Shown piece by piece: positions 1 to 5,866 of a DNA stretch of 5,981 nt (its first letter is position 1; each line of letters starts with the position of its first letter). The notes beneath the pieces are model-generated. The model made no database searches, had not been told where the DNA came from, and saw nothing but the letters and a program-made list of their open reading frames with translations. The position numbers and the translations under genes were made by a program. Source of the stretch: Gammaproteobacteria bacterium. Lineage in GTDB: Bacteria; Pseudomonadota; Gammaproteobacteria; Steroidobacterales; Steroidobacteraceae. The DNA is taken from positions 1-5,981 of the forward strand of contig JAQGOD010000381.1 in assembly GCA_028293775.1 (NCBI GenBank), written 5' to 3'.

Positions 1-714
1 TTCGGTGGTTTATTGCCGGCGCTCATCTTGTACGTGCTGATCCTGACGGTGACCTATGTACTCGATTCGAAGGCGAGGGCGGCAACGATGCAAACCGTTA
101 CGGCCCGCCTCAACGAGCAGCTTTCGTATGCTCAATTGAATGCCTTGCAGCGGCAGCTAGAACCTCATTTCATTTTCAATGCGCCCAACTCAATTTCGGG
201 GCTTGTGCGCGAGAACAAGAATGATGCCGCGGTCAGCATGATCGTCGCGTTGAGCGATTTCCTGCGGCAGGTTGCAATGAGCTCCAACGAGTCTCAAGTG
301 CGGCTCGCGCAAGAGGTGGAATTCCTCGAGCGCTATTTGCAGATTCAAGAAGTGCGCTTCGGCGGGCGCCTGAAACTGGACCTGCAAATTCCCAACGAAC
401 TGCGCCAGGCGCGAATCCCCAGCCTCACCCTGCAGCCTTTGGTCGAGAACGCGATCAAGCACGGGATAGCGAAACGCACGCAGGGGGGCGAAGTGCGCGT
501 GGAGGCTGCCAACTCGGAGGGCAGGCTGCGCTTGAGTGTGTATAACGACGGGCCGTTGCTCGAGACAAGCCACACCACGTCCAAAGACGGTATTGGCCTT
601 TCAAACCTGCGCACGCGTCTTAAGCTTCTCTACGGCAACGATTTCGAGTTGCGGCTCGAGAACTTCGGTATCACCGGTGTGCAAGTGTCCGTGTCAGTGC
701 CCTACTGCGCCTGA
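1..714 (+). CDS. LytS/YpdA-type sensor histidine kinase, 3' part (5' end outside window)
   Basis: This is the C-terminal part of a membrane sensor kinase that would autophosphorylate on histidine and pass the phosphate to the regulator encoded just downstream. The frame is open to base 1, and the TTG at 13 falls inside a hydrophobic helix (LILYVLILTVTYVL), so I treat the gene as cut by the window edge. Counting residues from that TTG, a helical linker leads to the His_kinase H-box QLEPHFIFNAPNSI with the phospho-accepting His at 52. The N-box LVENAIKHG is at 143-151, a YNDGP motif at 177-181, and the G-box DGIGLSNLRTRL at 192-203; the last three are the HATPase_c ATP-binding elements. The family H-box is normally PHFLFN(T/A)LN, so the proline at 58 (CCC where CTC/CTG is usual) is odd and may impair the helix. 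The stop TGA overlaps the ATG of the next gene by one base, suggesting translational coupling. The sensory N-terminus and the signal are unknown. Confidence 0.93.
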   Translation, partial: FGGLLPALILYVLILTVTYVLDSKARAATMQTVTARLNEQLSYAQLNALQRQLEPHFIFNAPNSISGLVRENKNDAAVSMIVALSDFLRQVAMSSNESQVRLAQEVEFLERYLQIQEVRFGGRLKLDLQIPNELRQARIPSLTLQPLVENAIKHGIAKRTQGGEVRVEAANSEGRLRLSVYNDGPLLETSHTTSKDGIGLSNLRTRLKLLYGNDFELRLENFGITGVQVSVSVPYCA

Positions 715-1025
715 TGGCCGCACGGTTGCCAAAACTTCGTGCGCTCATCGTCGATGACGAGCCCCTGGCGCGCAGCAATTTGCGGATACTTTTGCGGCGG
801 GATGCTGATATAGAGTCGATCGAGGAGTGCGGTTCGGGCGCGGAAGCGGTCGCGGCGATTCGAAAAGCTGCGCCCGACCTGGTGTTTCTCGATGTTCAGA
901 TGCCCGAATGCGATGGGTTCGAGGTGCTCAAAATCTTAAAAGGCGACGAATCTTTGCCCGTCATCGTGTTCGTGACCGCCTACGACGAATATGCCCTGCG
1001 AGACTTCGACACCGGCGCCCTTGAT

Positions 1026-1034
1026 TAACTGTAG
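1026..1034 (+). other. Paired nonsense codons TAA-CTG-TAG in the YLLKPF motif
   Basis: The nine bases read TAA CTG TAG in the regulator frame. The flanking residues (GALD before, KPFED after) align directly with the conserved ALDYLLKPF motif, so the ancestral codons were most likely TAT or TAC, CTG and TTG. One substitution each would make the two stops. No length change occurs, because both sides remain in the same frame. Confidence 0.9.
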
Positions 1035-1459
1035 AAGCCCTTCGAAGACGCCCGCTTCCACTTGGCCATGCAGCGCGCCAAGCAAAAGATAGCCGCACAA
1101 GAATCCGTGTTGCCCCAGGAAACGCCGCGCCTTACCGTGCGCAGCGCGGGTCAAGTGGCGTACGTGCGGATCCCGGATATCGATTGGGTGGAGGCAGCCG
1201 ACTACTACGTGTGCTTACACGTCGGGCTTAAGTCGCATCTGTTGCGCAAGAGCATGGCCGAACTGGAGCAGGAATTGGATCCGCAGATCTTTTGCCGCAT
1301 CCATCGTTCGACCATCGTCAATTTGCGCAGGGTGCAATCCCTCGAAGTCGACGAGGCGGGAGAATATGAGGTGATTCTCGACGGCGGCCGGAAATTGCGC
1401 TTGAGCCGGCGCTTTCGCAAGGACTTGCAATCGCGCATGCGCGAATTCGGTTGGCCGCC

Positions 1460-1463
1460 CTAG
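1460..1463. other. Shared CTAG holding both convergent stop codons
   Basis: The palindrome CTAG supplies TAG on the + strand (1461-1463, end of the regulator) and TAG on the - strand (1462-1460, end of the dehydrogenase). The two reading frames therefore overlap tail to tail by four bases. No room remains between them for a separate intrinsic terminator. Confidence 0.93.
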
Positions 1464-2321: not shown

Positions 2322-3068
2322 ATGCTGACACTGCAGAACATCTATAAGACCTTCGAGGGCAAGCCGGTGCTGTCTGACATCAATCTCCAAGTGCCGCAAG
2401 GGGCGACGCATGCGTTGATCGGCTCGAGCGGCTCCGGGAAAACCACGCTGCTGCGGATCACTCTCGGACTGATTCCCTTCGACAAGGGGTACGTGAAGAT
2501 CAATGATCAGCCCTTGCTCTCGTTCACGCAAGTGGAGTGGGCTGACCGCATCGGCTATGTGCCGCAGGATGGCGGGTTGTTCCCGCATATCACGGGTTTC
2601 AACAACGTTTCGTTGATTGCTAAGCTACGCGGTTGGTCAAAGCAAAAGGTCGCCGATCGCGTCGAGAAATTGCGCACGCTCGTGGATTTGGACCCCGCGA
2701 TCTTGAGGGAATTCCCGTTCGAGATGAGCGGGGGGCAGCAGCAGCGTGTCGCCATCATGCGAGCGGTGATGATGGACCCCCAAGTCATGCTGCTGGATGA
2801 ACCGATGGCAGCGTTGGATCCGCTCATTCGAAGCAGCTTGCAGGAGGAACTGAAAGCTATTTTTCAGCGCCTCGGCAAAACGGTTTTGCTGGTGACCCAT
2901 GATCTGGGAGAGGCGGTTTATCTCGCTGATCAAATCACGCTGCTGCACGAGGGCAGGATCGTGCAAAGCGGCAGCTATCGAGAACTGCTGCTGCATCCTA
3001 AGGATCCGTTCGTGACGCAATTCATCAATGCGCAGCGCACCCTGCCCGATGCGGCGCAGGTCGCGTGA
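2322..3068 (+). CDS. ATP-binding subunit of a glycine betaine/osmoprotectant-type ABC importer
   Basis: This 248-residue cytoplasmic ATPase would energise uptake through the permease encoded by the overlapping next gene. Motifs in order: Walker A GSSGSGKT (34-41), Q-loop YVPQDGGLFPH (79-89, Gln82), signature MSGGQQQR (135-142), Walker B VMLLDEP (155-161, catalytic Glu160), D-loop AALD (163-166) and H-loop His193 (VTHD). The sequence style and the partner gene point to the OpuCA/ProV branch. Relatives such as ProV and OpuAA extend past the ATPase with CBS domains that sense ionic strength; this protein ends about 20 residues after the ATPase fold, so it has none. The start ATG 2322 fits the family N-terminus (MLTLQNIYKTF). 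The frame is open further upstream, but that extension runs into the dehydrogenase. No clear Shine-Dalgarno sequence precedes the start. The stop TGA overlaps the next gene's GTG by four bases (GTGA). The substrate is not settled; betaines, choline or ergothioneine-like compounds are possible. Confidence 0.93.
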   Translation: MLTLQNIYKTFEGKPVLSDINLQVPQGATHALIGSSGSGKTTLLRITLGLIPFDKGYVKINDQPLLSFTQVEWADRIGYVPQDGGLFPHITGFNNVSLIAKLRGWSKQKVADRVEKLRTLVDLDPAILREFPFEMSGGQQQRVAIMRAVMMDPQVMLLDEPMAALDPLIRSSLQEELKAIFQRLGKTVLLVTHDLGEAVYLADQITLLHEGRIVQSGSYRELLLHPKDPFVTQFINAQRTLPDAAQVA

Positions 3069-4558
3069 AGCGCGTCGCGGCCTTCGTGCTCTTGATGGCG
3101 ACACTCGCGGTTTCGCCCGCCGGCGCGTGGGCCGCGGATGCCATCGTGGTGGGCTCGAAGGCTTTTACGGAAGGCTACATACTGGGAGAGATTTCGGCGC
3201 AGGCCATCGAGTCCGCATCGAGCGTGCCGGTCACGCGCAAGCTCGGCATGGGCAGCACCGGGATCTTGTTCGCGGCCTTGAAGAGCGGGGCCATCGACGT
3301 GTATGCCGATTACACCGGCACCTTGGCGGAAGCCATCTTGAAGCGTCCGGATTTGCGCTCCATCGAGGACATTCGCCGCGCACTGCTCTCTATGGATCTC
3401 GTCATGTCGGGGCCGTTGGGTTTCGATGACACCTACGCGCTGGCCGTGAAGGAATCCTTTGCCGATCAGCATCATTTGAACGCCATCAGCGATCTGGCAG
3501 GGATCGAAGGCAGCCTCCGCGCAGCATTCAGCTACGAGTTCATGGACCGCAAGGACGGTTATCAGGGGATGGTGCAGGCCTATGGGTTGCACTTTGCGCC
3601 CGAAAAGGTGAGCCGCATGGAGCACAGCCTGACCTATCAGGCCATCGATGACGGCGCGGTGGATTTGATCGACCTGTATTCCACCGATGCCAAGATCGAG
3701 AAGTCCCATTTGCGGGTGCTCAACGATGATCGGCATTATTTTCCGGTCTACCAAGCGGTTTGGGTGGCGCGCAAGGCGTTTACCGAGAAGCATCCACGCG
3801 AGTGGCAGGCGTTGTTGGATTTGCAGGGTTCCATCCGCGAACAGGCCATGATTGACATGAATGCGCAAGCTGACATTGGGCACGTCACCTTCGCGAAAAT
3901 CGCGGCTCAGCATTTGGGATCCGAAGCGCCGCGTTCACAGAGCTTGAAGAGCAATATCCTGCAGCGCACGCGCGAGCATCTGTGGTTAGTCGGAATCTCG
4001 CTGTTGTTTTCGGTGCTGGTGGGCATACCCTTGGGGCTCGCCGCCGTGCGCTTTCACGCCGCCGGTCAAGCCATATTGATCGTGAGCGCGGTGATTCAAA
4101 CCGTGCCCTCGCTGGCGCTGCTGTGTTTTCTCATCCCGCTGTTCGGCGTGGGCATGAGGCCGGCGCTTGCAGCCCTGTGCTTGTACAGCTTGCTGCCCGT
4201 CGTGCTCAACACCTTTACCGGCATCCGCGGCATTGATCCTAAGCATTTGGAAAATGCGCGCGCCTTCGGTCTGACACGCAGGCAAATTCTGTGGCGCATC
4301 GTGTTGCCGCTGGCAAGCCCCACGGTGCTTGCGGGAATCAAGACCGCGACCATCGTCAGCATTGGCACCGCGACGCTGGCGGCTCTTGTCGGGGCAGGGG
4401 GCTATGGCGCCCCCATCGTGTCCGGACTTTCCTTGAATGACGTGCCCACCATCCTGACCGGTGCCATCCCGGCGGCTCTCATGGCCTTGGTTGCCTACGG
4501 TGTTTTTGAGGTACTGGGTTTCATACTGATTCCCGCGGGGCTGCGCAAACAGACTTAA
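3065..4558 (+). CDS. Fused substrate-binding protein and permease of a glycine betaine/osmoprotectant-type ABC importer
   Basis: A single 497-residue chain carries both remaining importer parts. Residues 1-23 form a signal peptide (KR, hydrophobic core, AWA|AD). Residues about 26-285 are an OpuAC/OpuCC-like periplasmic binding domain: VVGSKAFTEGYILGEI (28-43), GSTGILFAALKSG (63-75), DVYADYTGT (78-86), GFDDTYAL (119-126), YEFMDRKDGYQGM (157-169), IDLYSTDA (202-209) and DDRHYFPVYQAVW (221-233). The Tyr-rich motifs resemble ligand pockets that hold quaternary amines. Residues about 297-492 are an OpuCB-like permease with helices near 306-328, 335-360, 366-385, 417-445 and 464-490, and the ATPase-docking EAA loop at 397-426 (ENARAFGLTRRQILWRIVLP and following). 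The start GTG 3065 lies inside the ATPase stop, implying coupled translation. In known fusions such as lactococcal OpuABC and pneumococcal EgtU the permease comes first; here the order is reversed. Ligand identity is inferred only at family level. Confidence 0.93.
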   Translation: MKRVAAFVLLMATLAVSPAGAWAADAIVVGSKAFTEGYILGEISAQAIESASSVPVTRKLGMGSTGILFAALKSGAIDVYADYTGTLAEAILKRPDLRSIEDIRRALLSMDLVMSGPLGFDDTYALAVKESFADQHHLNAISDLAGIEGSLRAAFSYEFMDRKDGYQGMVQAYGLHFAPEKVSRMEHSLTYQAIDDGAVDLIDLYSTDAKIEKSHLRVLNDDRHYFPVYQAVWVARKAFTEKHPREWQALLDLQGSIREQAMIDMNAQADIGHVTFAKIAAQHLGSEAPRSQSLKSNILQRTREHLWLVGISLLFSVLVGIPLGLAAVRFHAAGQAILIVSAVIQTVPSLALLCFLIPLFGVGMRPALAALCLYSLLPVVLNTFTGIRGIDPKHLENARAFGLTRRQILWRIVLPLASPTVLAGIKTATIVSIGTATLAALVGAGGYGAPIVSGLSLNDVPTILTGAIPAALMALVAYGVFEVLGFILIPAGLRKQT

Positions 4559-5506: not shown

Positions 5507-5866
5507 CTACTTAACGCAATTGCGCTTGTCTGACTGTTCCGCCAACTCAAGCAGACGCCGCTGCAAATAGCGGCCTTCCTCCGGCGAATCGGTTTTGTGG
5601 GACGCGCCTTCAATCTCACGTTGTTCAGTCTTGATTGCGACACACGCGGAGTTACCGCTGTCCGCTGAATCCGCCGGTGCCTCTACGGGATGATCCACAG
5701 CCGAGGGCGGGAGAAGTTTATTCTGGTCGTGCACGCTGAGAAAGGATTCCGACGCCGGATGCTGATAGCCGCTGATCACCTTGTAAGCGAGACCAGCGAG
5801 GCCTGCCAACAACAGAGCCGCACCCAAAGTTGGCGGAAGCCAGTCACGCATTGAACCCGCTTTCAT
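5507..5866 (-). CDS. Hypothetical single-pass membrane protein
   Basis: I do not recognise this 119-residue protein. It has a short basic start, one hydrophobic helix at about 13-32 (TLGAALLLAGLAGLAYKVIS), a Pro/Ala/Asp/Ser-rich linker (about 52-72), and a charged C-terminal segment likely to be helical (EEGRYLQRRLLELAEQ, 96-111). Two cysteines, Cys75 and Cys117, flank the C-terminal region. If the tail is periplasmic they could form a disulfide; that is inference. The C-terminal pattern, one Cys before and one after a charged Arg/Leu/Glu helix, loosely resembles small uncharacterised proteobacterial envelope proteins. The start could be ATG 5866 or ATG 5851 (MRDWLPP); neither has a strong ribosome binding site. 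The absence of stops over 119 codons, the membrane helix and the same-strand position next to the SnoaL-like gene support it as a real gene. Confidence 0.7.
   Translation of the reverse strand: MKAGSMRDWLPPTLGAALLLAGLAGLAYKVISGYQHPASESFLSVHDQNKLLPPSAVDHPVEAPADSADSGNSACVAIKTEQREIEGASHKTDSPEEGRYLQRRLLELAEQSDKRNCVK

Follow-up and report, generated by a model that had tools for sequence, protein, structure and literature searches.

Two stop codons in a LytTR-family response regulator gene form part of a short patch of private codons, most probably a local sequence error or a very fresh lesion

The window, i.e., the whole stretch of DNA that was analyzed (5,981 bases), carries an ordinary LytTR-family two-component response regulator gene of a Steroidobacteraceae-like gammaproteobacterium, broken in frame by two stop codons. 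By the sequence as read, this copy is a broken or misread member of the family and not a working one. The stops are half of a patch of four codons in states that none of the close relatives listed shares, and a single local event seems to fit all four best. The likeliest reading of the patch is a sequence error confined to this place or a gene broken very recently, not a new kind of split regulator, and we regard an error in the consensus of this short metagenome contig as its probable cause. Private changes packed in this way into a short invariant stretch of a single metagenome contig should be taken as one local event, and a sequence error should be suspected before decay or a split gene.

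Gene content of the contig

The window is very probably the whole contig, since the contig assigned to the truncated receiver described below also has 5,981 bases. The features that matter for the regulator are as follows.

1..714, plus strand: 3' part of a LytS-type sensor histidine kinase, the partner of the regulator (His_kinase PF06580)
714..1463, plus strand: LytTR-family response regulator, a single frame with two stops inside (Pfam; 120 intact homologues listed)
714..1028, plus strand: truncated receiver ORF of 104 residues, ending ahead of the Y-L-L-K-P-F motif
1002..1046, plus strand: patch of four regulator codons (97, 105, 107 and 111) in states absent from the 120 listed relatives
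1026..1028, plus strand: TAA stop at codon 105, Tyr in all 120 listed relatives
1032..1034, plus strand: TAG stop at codon 107, Leu in 119 and Met in 1 of the 120 listed relatives
1062..1463, plus strand: open frame 3' of the stops, with a TTG start and a near-complete LytTR domain (Pfam)

The kinase lies directly upstream, and its stop overlaps the regulator start at 714; its HATPase_c domain scored slightly under the Pfam cut-off. After the regulator there is a convergent short-chain dehydrogenase, the stop of which overlaps that of the regulator, followed by an ABC ATPase, an OpuAC/permease fusion, a glyoxalase-like ORF, a SnoaL-like ORF and an ORF without Pfam match. The fusion (3065-4558), a protein of 497 residues adjoining its ATPase, unites an OpuAC substrate-binding domain with a permease domain; within the order, 7 of 392 genomes keep it (E 1e-120). 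The ORF without Pfam match (5507-5866, minus strand, 119 residues) has a relative at the same place in genome G226, with 47% identity over 148 aligned positions. Source names on close relatives of the kinase and the regulator include Gammaproteobacteria and Steroidobacteraceae.

The regulator as read

Pfam Response_reg covers 714-1025 (profile positions 2-93 of 111), and LytTR (PF04397) covers 1062-1460 (E 1.2e-22, profile positions 4-96 of 98) in the same frame as the receiver. The copy in the window therefore has the DNA-binding domain in register with its receiver, and it lacks both an uninterrupted reading frame and a receiver with an intact Y-x-x-K-P-F end. An earlier note, made from the sequence alone, had placed TAA and TAG in the 714-1463 frame with one CTG codon between them, at the Tyr and the second Leu of YLLKPF. 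Both statements are accurate: the frame is otherwise open to 1460, so that these are the sole stops ahead of the terminal TAG (1461-1463), and the residues of the relatives at 105 and 107 confirm the positions within the motif. When the nearest listed relative (P0001) was aligned to the solved receiver 6m8o_A, both stop positions fell within the D-Y-x-L-K-P stretch of the latter. The Tyr at 105 and the Lys that follows are what we take to be the counterparts of CheY Tyr106 and Lys109.

Four private codons in the receiver

A total of 7,999 regulator homologues were scored, and the best 120 (79-99% identical) were used for comparison. All of them read through both stop codons, including the closest, P0001-P0015 (93-99% identical), every one of which is intact at the motif. 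The orthologous codons in close relatives, the check proposed beforehand, are thus intact at 105 and 107 in 120 of the 120 listed. Exactly four residues or stops of the window were absent from this set. Besides the two stops, they are codon 97, GAC (Asp) in the window and Ala in all 120, and codon 111, GAA (Glu) in the window, Asp in 119 and Val in 1. Every other residue of the regulator was found in at least one listed relative, the next rarest being Thr100 (3 of 120), and P0001 (ca. 99% identical) equals the window at 245 of 249 positions, differing only at 97, 105, 107 and 111. The four codons all lie inside 15 codons; when four codons of 249 were drawn at random, so short a span came up in 0.053% of 200,000 draws (p 0.00053). 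The picture of two stops within nine bases is therefore correct for the stops but too narrow for the lesion, which extends over ca. 45 bases with codons 97 and 111 also private.

A more distant set of 87 loci (L001-L087, of which L081-L086 come from one genome and L081 is the same gene as L006) gave a similar result at the invariant positions, with Ala at codon 97, Tyr at codon 105 and Lys at codon 108 in all 87, and Leu (79), Val (4) or Met (4) at codon 107. Codon 111 is variable here, with Glu in 14 loci, so that Glu111 is unusual among close relatives only. Stops occurred in 7 of the 87 aligned stretches, six of them at residues 243-247, the natural end. The seventh, at residue 21 of L060 (a Gammaproteobacteria MAG), is the one premature stop among the 87 and lies elsewhere in the gene than those of the window.

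The claim that there is no decay elsewhere holds for the regulator, judged against the 120 listed relatives, but in the adjacent kinase Pro62 (184-186, in the numbering of the part present in the window) replaces a Leu found in 120 of 120 listed relatives and is the sole kinase residue absent from all of them. It lies inside the HFIFNxxN sequence, a HisKA-type box, and might mean that the operon carries a further lesion or error. Elsewhere the contig seems to be in order. The window departed from a unanimous column in 1 case of 258 for the dehydrogenase (19 rows), 3 of 248 for the ATPase (8 rows) and none of 497 for the OpuAC fusion (9 rows). As controls, these counts carry less weight than the comparison of kinase and regulator with 120 proteins, the rows being loci, few and not independent, several from the same genomes. 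Duplicates and rows below 55% identity were dropped, columns with fewer than 5 rows were skipped, and the glyoxalase-like ORF, with a single row, was left out.

Base changes in the patch

Genome G270 (78% protein identity) allowed a comparison at the nucleotide level. Of the 13 differences inside 999-1048, 5 were pyrimidine-to-A, against 12 of the 163 outside (Fisher p 0.0037), but this value flatters the case, as the class was picked after the changes had been seen and stops necessarily contain A. One of the five (at 1001) is synonymous, and its private status is not established. The total number of differences in bin 1002-1049 (13) is not unusual, as bins range from 5 to 18. At least two stops arose in 0.8% of draws when four random substitutions were placed in the matching G270 patch and in 5.2% when the four were pyrimidine-to-A changes, so that any reading as a single event needs a little bad luck to yield two stops. 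A stop-prone motif was considered and rejected: in G270, there are six ways in which one step turns a codon among 105-108 into a stop, yet the 15-codon stretch as a whole is nothing out of the ordinary, since 112 of 235 stretches score at least equally high.

The kinase-regulator pair in syntenic genomes

Kinase and regulator are kept in one of the four syntenic loci read, that of G270. In the 9-11 kb read from G226, G372 and G300, no match to either gene was found at E 1e-5. G226 is the closest genome found for the neighboring genes (89-91% in the dehydrogenase, the ATPase and the OpuAC fusion), and it aligns with the window from 1430 onward only. Its DNA at this point (L112, 4013-4046), translated by eye, gives RMREFG and then another three residues before a TAG that is in register with the regulator end, about ten codons resembling the 3' end of the gene. 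We read this remnant as a probable stub from loss or replacement of the pair. The genes upstream of it in G226 had no match in the G270 locus, and the regulator was not found elsewhere in G226 at E 1e-90. The orthologue appears to be patchy, since a search of 396 genomes of the order at E 1e-100 recovered it in one.

Origin of the patch

Among the causes that had been suggested beforehand (clustered mutation, local consensus error or a genuinely split regulator), the private four-codon patch and the intact relatives keep the first two as a pair and leave the split aside. A split into a free receiver fragment (714-1028) and a LytTR protein that starts at 1062, 1068 or further on would be compatible with the near-complete LytTR domain inside the open frame 1062-1463. 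However, the same split is conserved in 0 of the 120 listed close relatives, so that the situation named in advance as favoring it, the same stops fixed in several relatives, was not found among them. The 104-residue fragment formed a cluster of one member from one contig, i.e., itself. In a search of short proteins (ca. 57-182 residues, clustered at 90% identity), no other among the best 120 of 3,182 was above 81% identity to the fragment, and 110 of these 120 have the motif by pattern. The fragment also ends ahead of two conserved receiver residues, Tyr and Lys, and a split leaves codons 97 and 111 unexplained. No Shine-Dalgarno-like motif was found in the 20 bases upstream of the 1062 and 1068 starts, or at usable distance from the in-frame starts listed from 1062 to 1188, which is weak evidence because the start of the regulator itself at 714 also lacks a visible motif of this kind. 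Failing its main test, conservation in relatives, a functional split seems very unlikely, and a LytTR protein started at 1062 or 1068 is unsupported. Five other short receivers do end at the same motif, four at regulator position 105 (P0250, P0286, P0297 and P0300) and one at 107 (P0270). They are probably unrelated frameshifts, judging from the proteins alone, since they are 68-74% identical to the window, their last residues differ and the ends of the 119 other listed short receivers spread over positions 101-186 (mean ca. 1.4 per position, 16 in the fullest). Gradual pseudogene decay through independent point mutations could invoke the two stops and the private Pro of the kinase, but it is highly improbable as well, given that independent changes are not expected to fall inside 15 codons and to leave no other private residue in 249.

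The two single-event readings share the tight cluster in an otherwise undamaged gene. A consensus error is favored because a single metagenomic contig is the source of the patch, all listed near relatives have the gene intact and no further private residue occurs in the window's copy. The truncated protein, limited to one member on one contig, the apparent soundness of the rest of the contig and the lack of a template of at least 10 bases for a copied tract within the window fit this cause too. For example, ca. 45 bases of consensus might rest on one poor read, and the cell's own regulator gene would then be intact and act normally: from what is known of the family, the kinase would phosphorylate the receiver domain, and the LytTR domain would then bind DNA. 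Against an error, the private Pro62 of the kinase and the absence of the pair at the G226 locus, with a stub kept, would suit a true loss, and two stops from four random changes are the stroke of bad luck already mentioned. On account of the kinase change and the loss in G226, a real and very recent clustered mutation retains a third of our confidence: one error-prone replication or repair event would have changed at least 4 bases within ca. 45 in this strain and inactivated the regulator, in a lineage able to lose the kinase-regulator pair. The tight cluster, the excess of pyrimidine-to-A differences, the position of Pro62 in the HisKA box and the retention of the pair in one of four syntenic loci speak for this mutation. 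On the other side, P0001-P0015 are all intact, no second copy of the broken form turned up among the best 120 of 3,182 short proteins, the base class was chosen after the fact, and the patch offers no notable hairpin (single-strand fold ordinary, z -0.48), the one inverted repeat reported within 900-1160 lying outside the patch. The fuller scenario, in which one event rewrote at least four bases in ca. 45 of the receiver, all of them to A if G270 shows the older state, and the kinase was also damaged, as a first step in discarding the pair with the G226 stub as a later stage, is rather unlikely. Were the change real, it would show cleanly how a clustered mutation can set off the loss of a two-component system dispensable in relatives.

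Three other origins were tried and rejected. A different genetic code does not apply, as the kinase, regulator and OpuAC ORFs end in TGA, TAG and TAA as expected and none of the 120 relatives has stops at the positions concerned. Template switching, or a copied tract, would leave a template, and no exact direct or inverted match of at least 10 bases overlaps the patch in the window searched, although a shorter tract may have served. A contig chimeric inside the gene is at odds with P0001, which matches every codon on either side of the patch.

Comparison with known systems

The gene resembles LytTR-family response regulators (PF00072 plus PF04397) in domain order, length (249 residues), upstream kinase and 99% identity to P0001, and its close relatives are named "two-component system LytT family response regulator" by their sources. 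It differs from them in the two in-frame stops and the two more private residues in a 45-base patch. Assembly errors that fragment genes are similar in that a broken gene appears on one contig when the listed near relatives are intact, but the window has substitutions instead of indels; a paper on errors of this gene-fragmenting kind concerns long-read assemblies (PMC12007338). The clustered or collateral mutations of translesion synthesis are similar in placing several substitutions close together, and one paper on them concerns chicken cells (PMC8870599), an organism different from that of the window.
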